In this document: positions 2,063 to 53,640 of the stretch, piece by piece
Numbering within the stretch: position 1 is the stretch's first letter
How the letters are laid out: every line of letters begins with the position of its first letter
Source of the DNA: Amphibalanus amphitrite
Taxonomy: Eukaryota > Arthropoda > Thecostraca > Balanomorpha > Balanidae
Length of the DNA stretch: 64,000 nt
NCBI RefSeq assembly: GCF_019059575.1
Contig: NW_024881824.1
Coordinates: forward strand, 186,001 to 250,000
Reading direction: 5' to 3'
Made by a program: the position numbers and the translations under genes
The notes under the pieces: model-generated
What the model saw: only the letters and a program-made list of their open reading frames with translations
Told to the model about the DNA's origin: nothing
The model's database searches: none

Positions 2063-2521
2063 CTATTCACGTGGCAAAACTTTCTGTTCCCTCCATAAAA
2101 TTCTGCCCAAAATTGGTGCCAATGAGTAATCTCCTCTTTTTGAGTTGATATTTGGCAAACATTCAATCACCGCAGCTTCGATCAGTTTTCGTCGATTTTT
2201 CCCTTTTCCGCTCCATATAATTCTTGCGTCTTTCCACTTTGGTAAATTGTTTTGTTCCTCTATAATATGAATAACGAAAGAGCTTGTATCTTTGTGGTTT
2301 CGAACGTCTCTTTTATGTTCGTCTAGTCTCTTCTTCATTCCCCGATATGTTTCGCCTATATAAGATTTGGAAAACCCCCCGCACGGAACTCTGTACACGA
2401 CGCTGTCCAAACTTTCGTCCGCCCTTCTTTTCTTGATTATATCTTTGGTCCTAAGACCGGTCCTTTCCACAAGTATGACGCCTGCCTGTCTTAAGGCCTT
2501 AGATATGATTTCTGTATTTTT
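2063..2521 (-). pseudogene. GIY-YIG endonuclease domain of a Penelope-like element (left arm)
   Basis: This is the minus-strand counterpart of the right-arm domain, with the same end of frame (REQKVLPRE then stop). It keeps the YIGE motif, the conserved Arg and the Glu in VIECLPNIN. Compared with the right arm it differs at several residues: one of the paired Cys before YIG is replaced by Phe (CGGF), Ile is Leu after MKKR, and one Ile is Arg in KDARIIW. The paired-Cys change suggests this copy is the more decayed of the two. Confidence 0.75.
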
Positions 2522-2591
2522 GCTGCCTGGTACTACTATCATCGTTCTATGGCGTTCTCTTTTTCTATATAGTAGTACCAGGCAGCAAAAA

Positions 2592-3050
2592 ATAAATACA
2601 GAAATCATATCTAAGGCCTTAAGACAGGCAGGCGTCATACTTGTGGAAAGGACCGGTCTTAGGACCAAAGATATAATCAAGAAAAGAAGGGCGGACGAAA
2701 GTTTGGACAGCGTCGTGTACAGCGTTCCGTGCGGGGGGTGTTCCAAATCTTATATAGGCGAAACATATCGGGGAATGAAGAAGAGAATAGACGAACATAA
2801 AAGAGACGTTCGAAACCACAAAGATACAAGCTCTTTCGTTATTCATATTATAGAGGAACAAAACAATTTACCAAAGTGGAAAGACGCAATAATTATATGG
2901 AGCGGAAAAGGGAAAAATCGACGAAAACTGATCGAAGCTGCGGTGATTGAATGTTTGCCAAATATCAACTCAAAAAGAGGAGATTACTCATTGGCACCAA
3001 TTTTGGGTAGAATTTTATGGAGGGAACAGAAAGTTTTGCCACGTGAATAG
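2592..3050 (+). pseudogene. GIY-YIG endonuclease domain of a Penelope-like element (right arm)
   Basis: The frame reads through about 150 codons to a stop at 3048-3050. It contains VVYSVPCGGCSKSYIGE followed by an MKKRIDEHKRDV block: the GIY-YIG core (VY...YIG), the conserved Arg in the helix after YIG, and a later Glu in AVIECLPNIN. The paired Cys just before the YIG motif (CGGC) are usual in Penelope-like endonucleases, as is the EH pair after it. The reverse transcriptase that should precede this domain is absent, so this is a 5'-truncated fragment of a retroelement protein. Frame upstream of about 2592 runs into the opposite arm and has no meaning. Confidence 0.8.
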
Positions 3051-8154: not shown

Positions 8155-8818
8155 TCTGTACTAATCTTTCACCTCCAGTCTCGTCACCGATAGCGGTTTT
8201 CAGTTCTGATAGTGTATGAAGTGAGTCTGTCAGTGAGGGAGCTCAGCGCCGACCGGTAGGACGTGTGTGTGTTGGAACGCCTGAGGATCGTACATCGAAC
8301 GAATAGTGGTGAAAAACTTGAGCCGAGGATAAGGAACAGTGATGAAATTTTTAGCTGGGAACATGTGATAAAAGTGAAAATTAGCGCTGGGGAAAAGAGA
8401 GACTGATGAAATTTGCAGCTGAGGACAAACAAATGGTGATGACAGTCAACATGCTGGCAATCAGATAGTTATGAAAATAAGTGCATAAAGAAAGTGGTAA
8501 AAATTATCGCACGACGCCATTGAAAATAAAGGCATTGTCCACAAACAACAACAGAAAATGATGGAACCAATCGCCAAGGACAGTGAAAAGTAATGCAAAT
8601 TAGAGCCGCAGACAGCTATTAGTGATGCAACTCAGAGCGATGGACATCAGACCAGGCCTCAGTGAACGTCCCTTCATGACCCGTAAGCGTTCCGTCGGTG
8701 GAGAAGATCGGGCTGATGTCTGCACCTCGAGCGGTCAGATTTCGATGACGTAAGCCGCGACCGAGCTGCCCGACCTCCACCGCCTGCGGGTGTGACCTGA
8801 CCGAGACGGAGCACAGCG
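8155..8818 (+). promoter_or_regulatory. Upstream region / 5' UTR of the Mab-21-like gene
   Basis: This is the only single-copy sequence between the right end of hAT element 1 and the start codon at 8819. No TATA box is obvious. Initiator-like TCAGT words occur near 8209 and 8229. Any promoter must lie here or inside the transposon, so the insertion may have displaced or supplied upstream control sequence. Confidence 0.35.
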
Positions 8819-10696
8819 ATGTCTGACCCAGGGAGGACGGCCAGTGGTGGCAGCGGTGAGGGTACGGCTACACCGCAGGACTCAGACGGGGCTCGGCTGA
8901 TGGCAGCCTGCGGCGAACACATCGATCTGGTGGTGGACGCGTGGTTTGATTCCAATGACATAAGATACGAGCTTCAATCAATTAACAACATGATGGCCGA
9001 AAGGAAGGGCAATTACGGTGCCCTGTGGTACCGTCCTATCTACCTTGCTGTGCGATCCCGTTACGTCAAATGCCAATGTTCACCGTTTAACTCCATTCTG
9101 CTGAAGAACACAGTCACTTCCGGTAGCAGGGCAGAGAAGCTAGACACCAAACCGAGGCCACCAACTTATCAAGGCGGCTCAGATGCGGACATCATGTTTG
9201 AACTGGGTCCGGTAGACTGGGTGTTTCCCGACACTGCCAACGGCAGTTCAGCGGAGGATACCAATACAGGAGCGGCACCAACTGCCGATCTCGGGGGTCC
9301 GAACAGCGACCCGCCTCCTCGCCTGGTGATCACCGAGACAGAGAACCCCGGCTTCGTGCTGCTGTTGCAGGAGCGTAAAGACGACTGTCCTCACCAGGAG
9401 AGGGTCATCTTCAAAGCTGAGGACGTGACAAATTTTTTCAAGGAACACCAAAACGTAGGGCTAGCACCAAACGCCACAACAAAAGGTGTCAGCGGGCCTG
9501 CCCTAACCCATTCATCTTATCTGTCGTACAATATGGCGACCACCGACTATGACAGAGTGCCATGTCTGCACGTCGCAGTGTGGTTCATCTCTGACGAGTT
9601 TTTTACCCGTCACCGCCGCCACAACTGGCCACCAGAAGCCGTCAGGGACAATATCAGACAGTTCGGCCTACACCTGGTGCCGGTGGGTGCTCACGGGAGC
9701 AGCACTGAAAGGTTTGAGTTCAGGATATCCTTCTCAAGAGCGGAGATGTTACTCGCTTCCTTGCTAACTGATCGACAACGACATGCTGTCATTGCTTTCA
9801 AGCTGTGCAAAGCTCTCGTACCAAACGGCAAGATGGTGAAGTCCTACTATGCAAAGACAGCGATGCTGTGGCTATGCGAGCAAACACCAAAGGATGACTG
9901 GACGGTTGTCTCTCAGAGTGTCATCAAACTGCTGGACTTCCTGGAAGAGGCTATCGACACGGGAAACCTTCCGTGCTACTTCTGGAGCCAGCTGAACCTA
10001 CTCCGGTTTACCAGTCAGGGTGACCGGGAGCTCATGAAGAAGGCTCTGCTAGACATCAGACAAAATCTGAGCATCCTTCTGGCACGTGAGTTGTGTGTGT
10101 ATCAGCCTGGACTTCAGAAGATGCTGACACAGACGACCACGCAACTAACGGAGCGCCAGGTGCGTGTCTGTCTGGCTCGATGGAACATCCTATTTGGCGT
10201 AATAGGAAATCTTGAGTTTTATCTGGCGATGGACACTTCACCTGAGGGAGAAAGACTGCTGTCCGTCCTGGTACATTCCAAACAGTTTACTGCATCTACT
10301 GTATCTAGACTGTTGAGAACATTCAGTCACCAGTACATACTGCACAAGTACCTGTTCAAGGCGATGACTGTTGCTCCAGAGGACGTGACATTGCAGATCC
10401 ACTTCACCCCCTTTGGCCATGGTTTCGCCTGGGACGCGGCTCCTCTGATAGAGCTACTCAATGGATGTGACATGCGATGCCTTCTGGGGGATCCTGACGC
10501 GGTGCGAGCCTGGCTGAGGCGTCAGCAACAGCTGCCGGAAGCTGAGCGGCCGGCCGGTCTGCCCGCGGACCTGAGGTCGCTGGGTGACCTCTGTGACCTG
10601 CTGTTCAACATTCCACTGCTGAGCCAGGCTCTCAGGGGAAGTGTACTGGACAAGTGGTCAGGACATGCAGTTAACAGTGAGCGCGCGATGGAATGA
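8819..10696 (+). CDS. Intronless Mab-21 / cGAS-like nucleotidyltransferase-fold protein
   Basis: The 625-residue frame starts at the first ATG after a stop-rich leader. Residues 102-103 (GS in TSGSRAEKL) and 122-124 (DAD in GGSDADIMFEL) match the GS...[D/E]h[D/E] catalytic signature of the cGAS/Mab-21 fold; an Asp in the DYDRVPCL segment (243 or 245) is the likely third acidic residue. Residues 268-310 (HNWPPEAV, GLHLVPVG, FRISFSRAEM) and 339-362 (MVKSYYAKTAMLWLCEQ...DDW) are classic Mab-21 helical-lobe motifs. Intact acidic residues suggest an active enzyme, possibly a cyclic-dinucleotide-making immune sensor (cGLR), but many Mab-21 proteins have unknown function and I see no clear zinc-binding insert. 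No introns are seen. The same frame continues past the stop (see next entry). Confidence 0.85.
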   Translation: MSDPGRTASGGSGEGTATPQDSDGARLMAACGEHIDLVVDAWFDSNDIRYELQSINNMMAERKGNYGALWYRPIYLAVRSRYVKCQCSPFNSILLKNTVTSGSRAEKLDTKPRPPTYQGGSDADIMFELGPVDWVFPDTANGSSAEDTNTGAAPTADLGGPNSDPPPRLVITETENPGFVLLLQERKDDCPHQERVIFKAEDVTNFFKEHQNVGLAPNATTKGVSGPALTHSSYLSYNMATTDYDRVPCLHVAVWFISDEFFTRHRRHNWPPEAVRDNIRQFGLHLVPVGAHGSSTERFEFRISFSRAEMLLASLLTDRQRHAVIAFKLCKALVPNGKMVKSYYAKTAMLWLCEQTPKDDWTVVSQSVIKLLDFLEEAIDTGNLPCYFWSQLNLLRFTSQGDRELMKKALLDIRQNLSILLARELCVYQPGLQKMLTQTTTQLTERQVRVCLARWNILFGVIGNLEFYLAMDTSPEGERLLSVLVHSKQFTASTVSRLLRTFSHQYILHKYLFKAMTVAPEDVTLQIHFTPFGHGFAWDAAPLIELLNGCDMRCLLGDPDAVRAWLRRQQQLPEAERPAGLPADLRSLGDLCDLLFNIPLLSQALRGSVLDKWSGHAVNSERAME

Positions 10697-11684: not shown

Positions 11685-12094
11685 CCCGCGCACCGACTGG
11701 GGTCCGCGCCAACTTAGAACCGACGGGGGGGGGGCGGATGACCCTCACCCCCTGGAATCTCGAGAACGAAGCAAGATAGCGACGAGCGGTAAACGGCATG
11801 TGGTACGCACGGACAAGTTCTACAATTTTTACTGAGGTCATTTTCAGGTCAGGTCAAAGATGACGTCACAGGGGTCAAAAACGTTAAAATGGCGGCGCTA
11901 CATATGAAGAGTTTTTCTCGAATAACTTTCGAAGTAGCCAAGCTAGGAACAAACTAATGGCGCCATCGTGATCCTCTCGTCAATCCGCATCGATTCATAT
12001 ATATGTTGACCTCGAAAGGTCAAGGTCAAAGGTTGCCCTCAGGTCACGTGTGACGTGACCTCGAGGTCATCATGCATATCATTTGAATTGCGCC
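11685..12094 (+). mobile_element. Truncated TTAA element (left half), kin of the 59.8-kb copy
   Basis: TTAA at 11681-11684 is followed by CCCGCGCACCGACTGGGG. From about 11785 to 12094 the sequence follows element D (59880-60190) closely, including paired AGGTCA words, TGACGTCA at 11861-11868 and AAAATGGCGGC at 11886-11896. The right half is missing; a LINE fragment and other repeats follow directly. Confidence 0.7.
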
Positions 12095-26721: not shown

Positions 26722-28719
26722 TCAGACGGCCATCCCGAGCGCCGCAGAGGCGGCCAGCAGGATGGTCAGCGCCCCAGCGACAGCCGAAGAGGCGCCGCTG
26801 TCATCCCTGACCGTTTTCAGACACTCGAAGTCGTCCGAGTAGGAGAGGAGCCGGTACTGGTCCAGCGCCTTGTTGCCCTCCACGCACCTGCTGGAGCTGT
26901 ACAGCGCTCCATAGACGTCCTCCAGCTGGAAGAGACCATCGCTGTGATCTTCGTCGTCATCCTTGAGATACTCCTCCTCTCCGGCGCTCACTAGTTCCTT
27001 GAGCTCCTCGCAGCGGCACGCGAAACGGTTGCCGTAGATGCGGTAGAGCGCCGAGTAGCTGTCCTTCTCGTCGGCTGGTGTCAGGAAGAGGCCGTAGCTG
27101 CCGTTAGCTGAGGCGCGCAGCGTGTTCTCGGCGAACGTGAAGGCAAACTCCTCGGAGCTCTCGCCGAAGCGCAGGTTCACCGGGTCCAGCCGGACAAACT
27201 CTGAGAACACGGACGCTCCGAGCCGCCCGACCTCGTTGCCCTTGACGGCGGCAGTGGTGAACTCGACGCGCAGCGGCGCCAGCAGGCTGCCGATGGTGTT
27301 GTTGACGATCTCGATCGTGTCCAGCGTCATCTCGACGTCCCACGAGTCCATTGACGAGATGGTGTTGCGCACGAGGGTCATGTTGTTGGAGTCGGTCGAG
27401 TGGGCGTTCGGGCGCGCGTTGATGCGAAGTGTGTCAACCTTCTTGATGGTGTTGTCGGTGACCGCGACGGAGAGCACGTCGCCGATGCTGATGCTGAGCG
27501 AGTCCAGCTTGCACTTGGACACGGTGACGTTGTCGGACTTGTCGACGAGGATCCTGACATCCTCGGCCACCGAGTCGCTGATGTGCATGTTCACCACGTC
27601 GGCACCGTCGGGCAGACCGTCGAGCGGCAGCGGGCCGGTGACGACCTCGGCGATGTTGAGCTCCTGCAGCTGCGTCACCTGGCTGAAGGCCTCCTCGTGG
27701 ACCTGTAGATCGGCCACGCGCTGCACGGTCACCCGCCGCCGCGGGCCGCCCTCCGTGTACAGGGAGCTGGCCTGCAGCTCCAAACTGGCGATGTCGCTCA
27801 GCTCCAGGTCGACCAGCGAGATGGCGTTCGATAGGGCCTCCGAGACCAAGCTGACGTGGCTGCAGTTGTGCACCCGCAGACTCCGGGTGCGGTCCGACAG
27901 GTACGCCTCGCTCCTTGCTCCCAGCATCAGATGCTGAAATATAAGTTAAGAGTTAGTTTGGGAAAGTGAAGACCTTGCGGGTAACAAGTCAATGTGGGTG
28001 CATTATGGGAGAGATATGCCGCATCTACATAGGTGTGATGTTTCACAAGAGGGGTGCATGGAACAGCATGAATGTCGAGCAGTACGGTGTGCTAAGAAAC
28101 CGGTTTCCATTGGCCAAAAGTAGAACGACCGTTGCACTTGCGTTCAAACGAGAGCGGCATGTGATCAGAATTGGACTGGAGCGCGGGTGTTTCGGCTCTC
28201 TGGACAACCGCCGTCGAGTCTGCAACTGGCGTGAAAGTTGCACAACTCGCCGAGCCAAGGCCATTCACTGTTTGTACTAAAACCTGTTTTACATTTGAAC
28301 TGAATCTCTCGTTGATACTGTTTCTCGCCCTGAACATCTGCGAGCGAGCGAGGGTTTTTTGAGCACCGACATAGCGAAAACTAAGTCCACCTCAATGGTG
28401 TAACTGCGGCGATTCGGTTAACGGTTCGTTTCGTACGGTCGTTTGCCGGCGGTGAGCTGGGCCGTTGTCCGGCTGCCACGTCCGCCATACTGCGCAGCTG
28501 GCCGCTGGGCGTTGTCTCTAGGCTCTGACTACTCACCTCATTGCTGCCGCCGGTGCTGCAGTCGCAGGTGACCATCTCCAGTCCGTCCAGGTCCTCACAG
28601 GAACACTCGCTGCGGCTGCACACAAACTGGATCGGCCGCGTCCCGGCGCTGGCCTGGGGCGCGGCGGCCGCCATCGCTGCCGCCGCGCAGAGAACGAGCA
28701 CGATCCCAGCCGGCCTCAT
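26722..28719 (-). CDS. Secreted, probably GPI-anchored solenoid (LRR-like) protein, two exons
   Basis: Exon 1 (28537-28719) and exon 2 (26722-27933) join at GAG|GTGAGT and TTTCAG|CAT in phase 0 to give 464 residues. Residues 1-20 (MRPAGIVLVLCAAAAMAAAA) form a signal peptide. A Cys cluster follows (FVCSRSECSCED, then VTCDCSTG). The middle consists of irregular repeats of about 20-25 residues with Leu/Ile/Val ladders and recurring N-x-I/V turns (TDNTIKKV, VRNTISSM, VNNTIGSL, VKGNEVGRL), suggesting an LRR or beta-helix solenoid. It has sequons NCS, NVT, NMT, NNT and NGS. A Cys cap (FACRCEEL...SSRCVEG...FECLKT) resembles LRR C-terminal caps. The tail DDSGASSAVAGALTILLAAS plus hydrophobic residues looks like a GPI signal. 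It is probably a cell-surface recognition protein; I cannot name the orthologue. Confidence 0.85.
27934..28536 (-). other. Intron of the solenoid-protein gene
   Basis: A 603-bp GT-AG intron with a strong donor (GTGAGT) and a polypyrimidine-containing acceptor (TTATATTTCAG). Nothing else was recognised within it. Confidence 0.8.
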
Positions 28720-29410
28720 AGTGTATTTCCTCTTCACAAGCTTCTCTGGATGTCCACACACTGACTGCTCACCAAGCGCGTTGCGAGCTTGCGGCTGTCG
28801 CAGGAGGTATAACGGCTGCGACCGCGGGCACCAGCTTTATGACAGCTGCGTCGCCGAGCTGCGCTCCCTGGAACAGACTGTGGTCGTGATTCAGCCGCGC
28901 AGTGGCGGCCCGCTCCGGCCGTGACGTCACTCCTCGGACGGCCGGCGGGCGTGCAGCGCGCGGCACGTTCCAGAAAAGCGCCGAGACCAGAGAGATAGCG
29001 AGCGTCCGGCACGGTCGCAGTGCCACACAGCCGGCTAACTGCCCCGGCGTGGTGCCAACGAGGCCGGGCCGCCCAGCGTCGTGCCACGAGACGGGCCTGG
29101 TTCAAATATCGATTGATGGTGTGCCCTTGAAGCCTGCCATCCTGTGTCAGTTGGCCGCTCCCTCCGCCCTGCGGCGGCCGGCCACGTAGTACCGGTCCTG
29201 GAAAGTGTGACGTCATCCAGGTGTGGCGTCACAGGTATGAGGCCTTCAGGTGTGACGTCGGACCGGATTCGACCAACCAGACGTCGTGTTAGTGGAAACG
29301 AATTTCACTGGATGCTTCCATAGTCTATGACGGCATAGTTTGACGTCACACACCTTTGCGGGTCGGTTAGCGAATAATTGGGCACTGCCGGTGATTGTGA
29401 CGTCACACCG
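28720..29410 (-). promoter_or_regulatory. Upstream region of the solenoid gene with TGACGTCA cluster
   Basis: Four perfect TGACGTCA palindromes lie at 28922-28929, 29208-29215, 29341-29348 and 29398-29405, with a one-off form (TGACGTCG) near 29253. This is the CRE/ATF consensus. A TCAGTG initiator-like word on the minus strand sits near 28759-28764, about 40 bases before the start codon. No well-placed TATA box was found. The region is GC-rich. Chance would give far fewer than one such 8-mer in 700 bp. Confidence 0.5.
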
Positions 29411-52200: not shown

Positions 52201-52516
52201 TGAGTGGTGGCTCGGTCGTTGGCGAACTCACGAGTCGGGTCGGCCGAGCCGCGTCATCGCTGTCATGAATGGCCTACGATAGCGGCACTCCTGAATGGGC
52301 ACGATAAGGCCAGTAGTAGGTGGCGAGCTGAGAACGGTAGCCGACGGTGGTGTCCCTGCGATTGACCGGCTGCTCGGCGGCAATTGAGTGAAAGCTGCCG
52401 GCGCCGCGACGTCGCCAAGTCGAGCTCCGAGCGCTGCCGGCCGGCGCCGCGCTAAATCGGAAGTGTGGACGCGGCGCGGCGAGCGGCCGCCGGCCCGGGC
52501 AGCCCGCCGCGCGCGC
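46258..52516. other. About 6 kb with no gene recognised; GC-rich islands
   Basis: GC-rich islands at 46260-46720 and 48120-49180 hold overlapping frames on both strands (up to 262 codons at 48420-49208). Their translations are Arg/Pro/Ala-rich with no domain, as expected from composition alone. Between them the sequence is ordinary. These islands may be promoters or first exons of genes continuing elsewhere. Confidence 0.35.
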
Positions 52517-52580
52517 TGACGTCACGACCTCCGAGAGACCACTCACCTTATAAAGCCGGCCGGCCCGACGGCACTTCAGT
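52517..52580 (+). promoter_or_regulatory. CRE-TATA-Inr core promoter
   Basis: A perfect TGACGTCA is at 52517-52524, TATAAA at 52549-52554, and an arthropod-type initiator TTCAGT at 52575-52580. With the A at 52578 as +1, TATA begins at -29 and the CRE at -61. This spacing is textbook for a focused promoter. It predicts a 103-nt leader before the first ATG at 52681, with no earlier ATG. Confidence 0.75.
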
Positions 52581-52680
52581 AGCAACCAGTCAGCGACGAG
52601 AGACGGGCCGTGCTCCGCCGATCCGCGAGCCCGACACAGTGTGCTTTCGAGACCGAGCGATCGCCTCATACGCAAGCGTC

Positions 52681-53169
52681 ATGCACGCAGCCCGCGCCGA
52701 CCCCACCCGCACCCGTCCGCAGTTCAGCATGCGTGCCGATCCGACGCGCACCAGACCGGTGTTCCAGCTGAGGGCGGACCCGACCAGGACCAGGTCGGCC
52801 GTCCAGGAGCTGCGGGCAGACCCGACCCGAACCAGGTCGGCTGTTCAGGAGCTGAGGGCTGACCCGACCAGAACGCGACCGGTCATCAACTTCAGGGCAG
52901 ATCCGACCAGAACACGGCCTGCCATTCAGCTGAGAGCGGACCCGACCAGGACCCGGCCGTTTGTGCAGCTGAAGGCGGACCCAACCCGCACTCGGCCAGC
53001 GCTTCTGCTGCGGGCTGACCCGACGCGCACCCGCCCGGCACTGGAGCTGCGGGCTGACCCGACGCGCACCCGCCCGTGCCTGGAGCTCCGAGCTGACCCG
53101 ACCCGGACCCGGCCAGCTCTGGAGCTGCGGGCTGACCCGACCCGGACTCGTCCGGCGCTGAGCTGTTAG
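52681..53169 (+). CDS. Twelve-repeat ADPTRTR protein, unknown family
   Basis: The 162 residues are MHAA followed by twelve units: ten of 13 residues and two of 14. The consensus is RADPTRTRPALEL; ADPTRTR is invariant in all twelve, the leading Arg is Lys once, and the tail varies as a short, mostly hydrophobic linker (PVFQL, SAVQEL, PVINF, PALLL, ending PALSC). Codons vary freely under this constancy: all four Ala codons, and all six Arg codons at the last Arg of the motif, so protein-level selection rather than recent DNA duplication explains the sameness. There is no signal peptide, membrane span or dibasic site; the protein is basic and probably extended, in cytosol or nucleus. It is intronless. 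I chose the start as the first ATG downstream of the TATA/initiator; the frame is also open further upstream, but that part lies outside the predicted transcript. I recognise no family. Confidence 0.8.
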   Translation: MHAARADPTRTRPQFSMRADPTRTRPVFQLRADPTRTRSAVQELRADPTRTRSAVQELRADPTRTRPVINFRADPTRTRPAIQLRADPTRTRPFVQLKADPTRTRPALLLRADPTRTRPALELRADPTRTRPCLELRADPTRTRPALELRADPTRTRPALSC

Positions 53170-53640
53170 GACCGCGGCAGCTCGCGACTCATCCGGTGGT
53201 GTCCAGCAGCGTCCTCAAAGAGGAGTCGGCTGGAGATGAAGAGAGAGCGTGTACCAAAGAGTTGGGACCAAGCGTTCACTGGGACCTATAGATCTCACTG
53301 CCGTGCCGTGTAGGCGGCGCCTCTGACCGGGCGCGGCCGGCCCTGTGTCGCGCCGCGCGCCTCCCGCCGCCGCAACCTGTTACCACTGTCAGTGCCGCCC
53401 GACCGGCCGGCCGCCGGCTGCTCATCCTGTGTAGATATTTGTGTACAAATGGCTCGGTGGAGATCACGGTCAACGTTCCTCTTGTTGTAGATCTGATGGC
53501 GATCTGCGGCTTTTCCCAGATCCGTCACCGACAGCGCGCTCAACGGCTCTTGTGTTGTTAATTATTTGTGCGCGTTTGACTACTCTGTGTTATATTATTC
53601 AGTGTTATTTATTCGGATAATACATTTTATGGATAGACAT
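53170..53640 (+). promoter_or_regulatory. Probable 3' UTR with Pumilio-type and AU-rich motifs
   Basis: Downstream of the ADPTRTR frame are TGTAGATA (53430-53437), matching the Pumilio site UGUANAUA, and TTATTTATT (53605-53613), matching the AU-rich destabilising nonamer UUAUUUA(U/A)(U/A). An AATACA variant polyadenylation word follows near 53618. Together these suggest a short-lived, tightly controlled mRNA. Each motif alone could be chance. Confidence 0.45.

Follow-up and report, generated by a model that had tools for sequence, protein, structure and literature searches.

A stretch of the Amphibalanus amphitrite genome, 64,000 nucleotides long and hereafter called the window (G000:C327:186001-250000), carries an open frame of tandem repeats downstream of CRE and TATA words, which raises the question of whether the frame is a gene and, if so, what holds its repeat constant and what the product might do. 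A first-pass annotation had described the region 52517..53613 as encoding twelve ADPTRTR repeats, and this description stands. The coding sequence of gene A (52681-53169, forward strand) is a single open frame of 162 amino acids plus a TAG stop codon, within which the array (52693..53166, forward strand) comprises 12 units of [RK]ADPTRTR, each followed by a linker of 5–6 residues. Eleven of the 12 units begin with R and one with K, and they recur every 13 residues except for two spacings of 14. The frame is uninterrupted, in agreement with the lack of introns that had been claimed; the term 'intronless', for A as for the paralogue described below, denotes here an uninterrupted frame read from genomic DNA alone.

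Variation among the units of gene A is concentrated where it leaves the protein unchanged. Both the first and the last arginine of the core are encoded by all six Arg codons, and the alanine by all four Ala codons, which bears out the near saturation of synonymous codons noted at first pass. Averaged over the eight core codons, diversity amounts to 0.178 at the first codon position, 0.021 at the second and 0.545 at the third, and, the single K apart, the variation at position 1 is the switch between CGN and AGR arginine codons. At least 14 changes are needed to account for the 18 DPTxTR columns of gene A, and 100% of them are synonymous, compared with ~30% for random single changes (rough P ~4e-8, assuming that the changes are independent).

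The best evidence for gene A is a paralogue, B, which is absent from the first-pass annotation. A search of the genome (807,550,619 bases in 2,644 contigs) with the A protein shows one clear paralogue ~91.5 kb from A, on the opposite strand and outside the window (G000:C327:330697-331539, minus strand). It encodes 280 amino acids with 17 units of TDPTKTR in an uninterrupted frame, and its diversity at codon positions 1, 2 and 3 is 0.066, 0.000 and 0.537, respectively. It is because of paralogue B that a longer unit could be recognised, the one common to both proteins being D-P-T-[RK]-T-R-P-x-hydrophobic-x-hydrophobic. Across the 29 units of A and B, the residues D, P, T, [K/R], T and R are invariant and are followed by P in 27 units and S in 2; next come a variable residue, a position occupied by L, V, I or F in all 29, one that is mostly Q or another polar residue, and one that is L, F or M in 23.

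Contig C323 holds a near-identical copy of the A and B loci, which is read as the second haplotig. Between the two haplotigs 10 codons differ in A and 32 in B, with equal lengths and an unchanged frame (NG86 dN and dS values of 0.016 and 0.048 for A, and of 0.015 and 0.108 for B). Within the seven-codon core, 203 codons in all, 11 changes are synonymous and none alters an amino acid, against 18 synonymous and 13 amino-acid changes outside it (Fisher P 0.009 versus the core). Two of these 13 changes, L216F and V229E, hit hydrophobic positions of B, and V229E breaks one B unit on one haplotig. Within-array codons and haplotig polymorphism demonstrate, at the level of sequence, that A and B are protein-coding genes whose core is held by selection on the protein, as had been proposed for A; the accompanying description of the repeats as old holds in relation to haplotig divergence. 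The alternative of a GC-rich minisatellite whose open frame is incidental, or of a gene on the antisense strand, would agree with the many weak matches to other repeat arrays in the genome and with an antisense frame of 182 amino acids that is also open, but it is refuted by the codon pattern, as the core variation in the sense frame lies in third positions and in the synonymous first position of Arg codons. Core residues are moreover spared by the haplotig changes, paralogue B uses different codons and K for R, and the promoters are conserved, which leaves this explanation with next to no probability.

A reverse-translated DPTxTR pattern occurs at 65 places in the genome, 54 of which belong to the two genes or their haplotig copies. 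Seven of the remaining 11 were read and all fall in frames of 22–72 amino acids; a place on C223 consists of two adjacent DPTQTR copies in a 34-residue frame, and one on C260 reads DPTKTSP. The places at C378, C575, C749 and C1256 were left unread, three of them sharing their matched letters with read ones. Given the short frames in 7 of the 11, the isolated places were rejected as further members, and the pattern search, with these 7 outlying places read, revealed no other long DPTxTR array in this genome. Protein searches of the genome with A and with B gave 74 and 46 listed matches, respectively, with 150 of 290 and 138 of 442 first-look candidates scored, so that a weak third member may have been missed; with B as query no third member appeared, the matches listed beyond A, B and their haplotig copies being 22–38% identical. 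Weak distant matches were rejected as relatives, since the eight regions opened (L012-L014, for frames of at least 180 amino acids only, and L066-L070; L015-L018 are not among them) hold other repeats, for example ITGATLKPSVTSF or TEVTTLEATGPVT. Regions L067 (C194) and L069 (C780) contain other long Thr-rich repeat frames, made for instance of FITGATLKPSVTS units, without the DPTxTR core. By their sequences, A and B constitute a two-gene family of tandem short-linear-motif arrays, with 12 and 17 copies, respectively.

The promoter of gene A is composed of the CRE octamer TGACGTCA (52517..52524, forward strand), the TATA box TATAAA (52549..52554, forward strand) and TTCAGT (52575..52580, forward strand), which we take to be an arthropod-type initiator with a predicted start at 52578; all three words lie where they had been placed at first pass. 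TATAAA precedes the A at 52578 by 29 bases, and the first ATG past TTCAGT is that at 52681, leaving a predicted 5'UTR (52578..52680, forward strand) with no upstream ATG. The layout is repeated at B, whose leader also lacks an ATG: the same octamer is used, the CRE begins 32 bp before the TATA box at each locus, and the TATA box begins 29 bp before the initiator A in gene A and 30 bp before it in B. The longest haplotig-identical run at A, 329 bp in an alignment of 3,072 bases whose outer ~500 are poorly alignable, encompasses promoter, 5'UTR and first codons (52470..52798, no strand assigned; -211 to +117 of the ATG), and the longest at B (293 bp in 3,556 aligned bases) is likewise a promoter-leader-start block. 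CRE, TATA box and candidate initiator thus stand at core-promoter spacing in A and again in B and on both haplotigs, and the equal CRE-TATA spacing in B, together with haplotig invariance, strengthens the first-pass assignment of a CRE-TATA-initiator promoter. Besides its CRE, B has an AP-1 site, TGACTCA, 260 bases upstream of the ATG (L010), which is present on both aligned haplotigs yet lies outside the 293-bp identical run.

The weight that each promoter element carries depends on its frequency elsewhere. The octamer TGACGTCA alone has 18 copies in the window versus 1.05 expected, and CRE plus TATA with the initiator left out is found 293 times genome-wide versus 158 in the control, about twice as often; because of this excess in the window and the modest genome-wide one, the CRE carries less weight alone. 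A single spaced CRE-TATA pair is present in the window, where 0.01 would be expected, and a genome-wide count of the strict layout TGACGTCA-N22-26-TATAWA-N19-25-CAGT gives 12 places in 808 Mb versus 1 for a backward control. Four of these 12 places are A, B and their haplotig copies and, when near-identical matches are paired, the layout resolves into eight distinct loci: A, B and six others. Among the six (eight places read), only one has a long frame from its first ATG, the remainder having frames of 7–40 amino acids. This locus (G000:C632:90227 and C1827:15737; L062 and L065) encodes a serpin-like protein of 428 amino acids in an uninterrupted frame. Like A and B, it combines a long uninterrupted frame with the strict CRE-TATA-CAGT layout, whereas its product, named by eye, is unrelated and has a hydrophobic leader.

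Some of the TGACGTCA copies in the window are clustered (28922, 29208, 29341 and 29398; 39347, 39709 and 39732), and those at 11861 and 59969 have near-identical flanks and look like one repeat element. Four copies, at 28922-29405, lie just upstream of two minus-strand frames, 26722-27945 and 28381-28836, which perhaps belong to one gene; the second has a hydrophobic leader by eye, and the first, of 407 amino acids, has no Pfam match. Elsewhere in the window, a Mab-21-like protein is encoded in one long frame (8801-10696, forward strand; Pfam Mab-21_C and Mab-21), and two overlapping, nearly identical frames of 228 amino acids on opposite strands form an inverted duplication at 2063-3050 that has the look of a GIY-YIG element by eye, for which Pfam gives no support.

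The predicted 3'UTR of gene A (53170..53630, forward strand) has a guessed 3' end: AATAAA and ATTAAA are absent from the 3' flank, and the nearest variant of a poly(A) signal is AATACA at 53619. The flank contains UGUAGAUA (53430..53437, forward strand; the TGTAGATA position), presumably a Pumilio-type word, and UUAUUUAUU (53605..53613, forward strand; the TTATTTATT position), which we take to be of the AU-rich destabilising nonamer type. The words reported in this flank at first pass are in place, TGTAGATA at 53430 and TTATTTATT at 53605, but UUAUUUAUU and UGUANAUA are not common to B. Exact UUAUUUAUU, UGUANAUA and UGUAGAUA words were not found in the 1 kb past the B stop, where TATTTAT occurs twice, at +607 and +623. 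A fast-off mRNA is plausible for gene A from its flanking words, and from the two promoters we infer that A and B are transcribed via CRE-binding factors upon cAMP, calcium or MAPK signalling. In their CRE, TATA box, initiator, uninterrupted frame and downstream AU-rich words, A and B are like immediate-early and cAMP-responsive genes as generally known; we know of no product of such a gene that theirs resembles.

The first-pass claim that the repeat belongs to no known family is upheld by the libraries searched. In Pfam the best scores are 7.1 bits for A and 12.5 for B with a cut-off of 25; PDB sequences and IMG/VR hold no relative of either protein, the four PDB matches to A (E 0.25–0.4) being judged chance; prokaryote genomes, queried with B only, hold no relative; and a literature search found no publication with ADPTRTR, DPTKTRP, DPTRTRP, DPTRTRS or TDPTKTR. 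Tandem-motif intracellular proteins are known as a kind, and this unit and its pairing with the promoter appear new within Pfam, PDB, IMG/VR, the prokaryote genomes and the literature searched.

The products of A and B probably reside inside the cell. By eye, no hydrophobic leader and no KR or RR between units, the expected marks of a secreted neuropeptide precursor, are seen in either. Both are net positive (K+R versus D+E of 36 versus 17 in A, and of 42 versus 22 in B) and combine a long regular repeat with alternating hydrophobics, and male-germline CRE genes are known elsewhere, all of which would suit a basic structural or nucleic-acid-binding repeat protein of chromatin, of egg or sperm packaging, or of a fibrous or mineral-associated kind. 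Such a role is nevertheless unlikely: the charge is moderate, every unit contains an invariant acidic residue, no hydrophobic signal sequence is seen by eye at the N terminus of A or B, and the invariance of every core residue exceeds what charge would need. Threonine is abundant (24 residues in A and 63 in B), as would be expected of the phosphorylation array that had also been put forward at first pass. However, sites for PKA, PKC, CK2, Akt, S/T-P and CaMKII-type kinases, in consensus forms written from general knowledge, number 0, 1, 0, 0, 0 and 2 in A and 0, 2, 1, 0, 2 and 1 in B, all fewer than shuffled A and B contain on average. With these sites at or near zero in both proteins, the phosphorylation array was rejected as very improbable.

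The composition of the unit suggests that A and B are, most likely, multivalent docking arrays, for which MAP-kinase D-motifs would be the best specific fit, as a feedback sponge or scaffold. Proteins known to carry D-motifs have one or a few of them, joined to a kinase, phosphatase, scaffold or substrate. D-motifs consist of one or more basic residues, a linker and alternating hydrophobics (PMC4670726, in part), and comparable elements are present in the arrays. Basic residues (R/K and R) occupy two fixed positions in 29/29 units, and the phiA-x-phiB hydrophobic pair is present with L/V/I/F as phiA in 29/29 and L/F/M as phiB in 23/29. The third hydrophobic position, phiL, is P in 27/29 and S in 2/29, and a published reverse-D expression permits P (PMC5753338, in part). 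Overall, 21 of the 29 units (7 in A and 14 in B) match the ERK/p38 (MEF2A-class) expression as we know it, the eight mismatches being two A units with S for P and one extra residue, and six others. None of 2000 linker shuffles reached 21 under either of two schemes (mean 7.5 and maximum 14 over 2000 shuffles when P is kept and the next five residues are permuted); since the units share descent, the shuffles overstate significance, and they are evidence that the spacing has been retained, not of an origin for this purpose. The density of this expression is 4.3 per 100 amino acids in A and 5.0 in B, compared with 0.0–0.5 in four other frames of the genome. D-motif patterns are degenerate, with 87,857 matches in the human proteome by pattern alone for seven classes (PMC4670726, in part). 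The JIP1-type JNK docking form, [RK]P[^P][^P]L.[LIVMF] as generally known, was rejected, with 0/29 units matching.

The A and B units are thus like D-motifs of the greater MEF2A class (MEF2A and MKK6 type; PMC4670726, in part) in having 1–2 basic residues, a short linker and alternating hydrophobics, and they differ from known D-motifs in their 12 and 17 copies, which make up about the whole protein, in the invariant D-P-T and in the use of P as first hydrophobic. Several features speak against the assignment: D-P-T, the most invariant part, is unaccounted for, an acidic residue sits unhelpfully three positions ahead of the first basic one, proline has to act as the first hydrophobic residue, V229E disrupts a hydrophobic position in one haplotig of B, and a broad calcineurin-binding PxIxIT form fits nearly as many units (18/29).

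The last point introduces a calcineurin PxIxIT array, in which the linker would be an added strand on calcineurin and the protein a CRE-driven feedback inhibitor, with RCAN and Cabin1 as comparison models. The broad form, P[^PG][IVLF][^PG][IVLF][TSHEDQNKR] from general knowledge, was matched as often in 0 of 2000 shuffles. The P-x-hydrophobic-x-hydrophobic spacing is common to the A and B units, to RCAN as generally known, and to NFAT and AKAP79 (PMC6728138, in part), and the R that precedes P in A and B is weakly favoured at that position by calcineurin (same source, in part). The strict form, P[^P]I[^P][IV][^P] as we know it, was rejected, however, as it occurs in 0/29 units; the hydrophobic pair is mostly L/L rather than the I/I of PxIxIT proteins, and the invariant basic core DPT[RK]TR is left unexplained. 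A calcineurin array accordingly has only a slender chance of being correct.

With the CRE-driven logic kept, the multivalent array might serve as docking platform or scaffold for some partner that is not a MAP kinase; this is a serious possibility, if short of a probable one. The strong constraint on the core and the near absence of kinase consensus sites agree with it, and the D-P-T invariance, which none of the motifs tested explains, is the strongest reason to keep it as the main rival. It fails, on the other hand, to predict the basic-P-x-hydrophobic-x-hydrophobic docking match at 21/29 units.

If the MAP-kinase docking reading holds, CRE-driven transcription would make the A and B proteins on demand following a signal. 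Speculatively, each unit would then be a peptide bound in a groove on some signalling enzyme. An ERK/p38-type MAP kinase would be the likeliest candidate, and in its docking groove the two basic residues of the unit would face the acidic patch while the P-x-hydrophobic-x-hydrophobic segment would occupy the hydrophobic pockets. S/T-P sites are absent from A, and the two in B lie outside the array; this scarcity makes the arrays unlikely MAPK substrates and suggests decoys or scaffolds instead. Acting multivalently, these would damp or concentrate the kinase and so form a feedback loop. As a whole, the proposal that A and B are CRE-induced arrays of ERK/p38-type docking peptides serving as decoy or scaffold is tentative, possible but more doubtful than not.

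Barnacle biology offers settings in which such a loop might operate. Settlement rate correlates with cAMP level, and the type I-alpha regulatory subunit of PKA co-localises with phospho-p38 in cement glands (PMC4593178, in part); p38 is phosphorylated by recombinant MKK3 of the barnacle, a kinase implicated in settlement, and barnacle p38, ERK and JNK have been produced in E. coli (PMC3726695, in part). The consulted portions of these two reports do not mention the A or B genes, and the cAMP and p38 settings that they describe are compatible with the proposed feedback mechanism. A crustacean-restricted family of CRE-driven, substrate-free kinase sponges, built from docking motifs only and possibly placed in the cAMP/p38 circuit of settlement, would be a bolder reading and is quite unlikely.

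Mechanism aside, A and B are well supported as a pair of genes, their core-promoter layout is rare in the genome and their products are unmatched in the domain libraries searched. Were the docking reading true, they would be natural multivalent arrays of one docking motif, whose 29 native units can be compared with one another and would already supply the material for testing how ligands are read by a signalling groove. They would also offer a genetically simple handle on a cAMP/p38 circuit with a link to settlement in barnacles, the step from which ship fouling follows.
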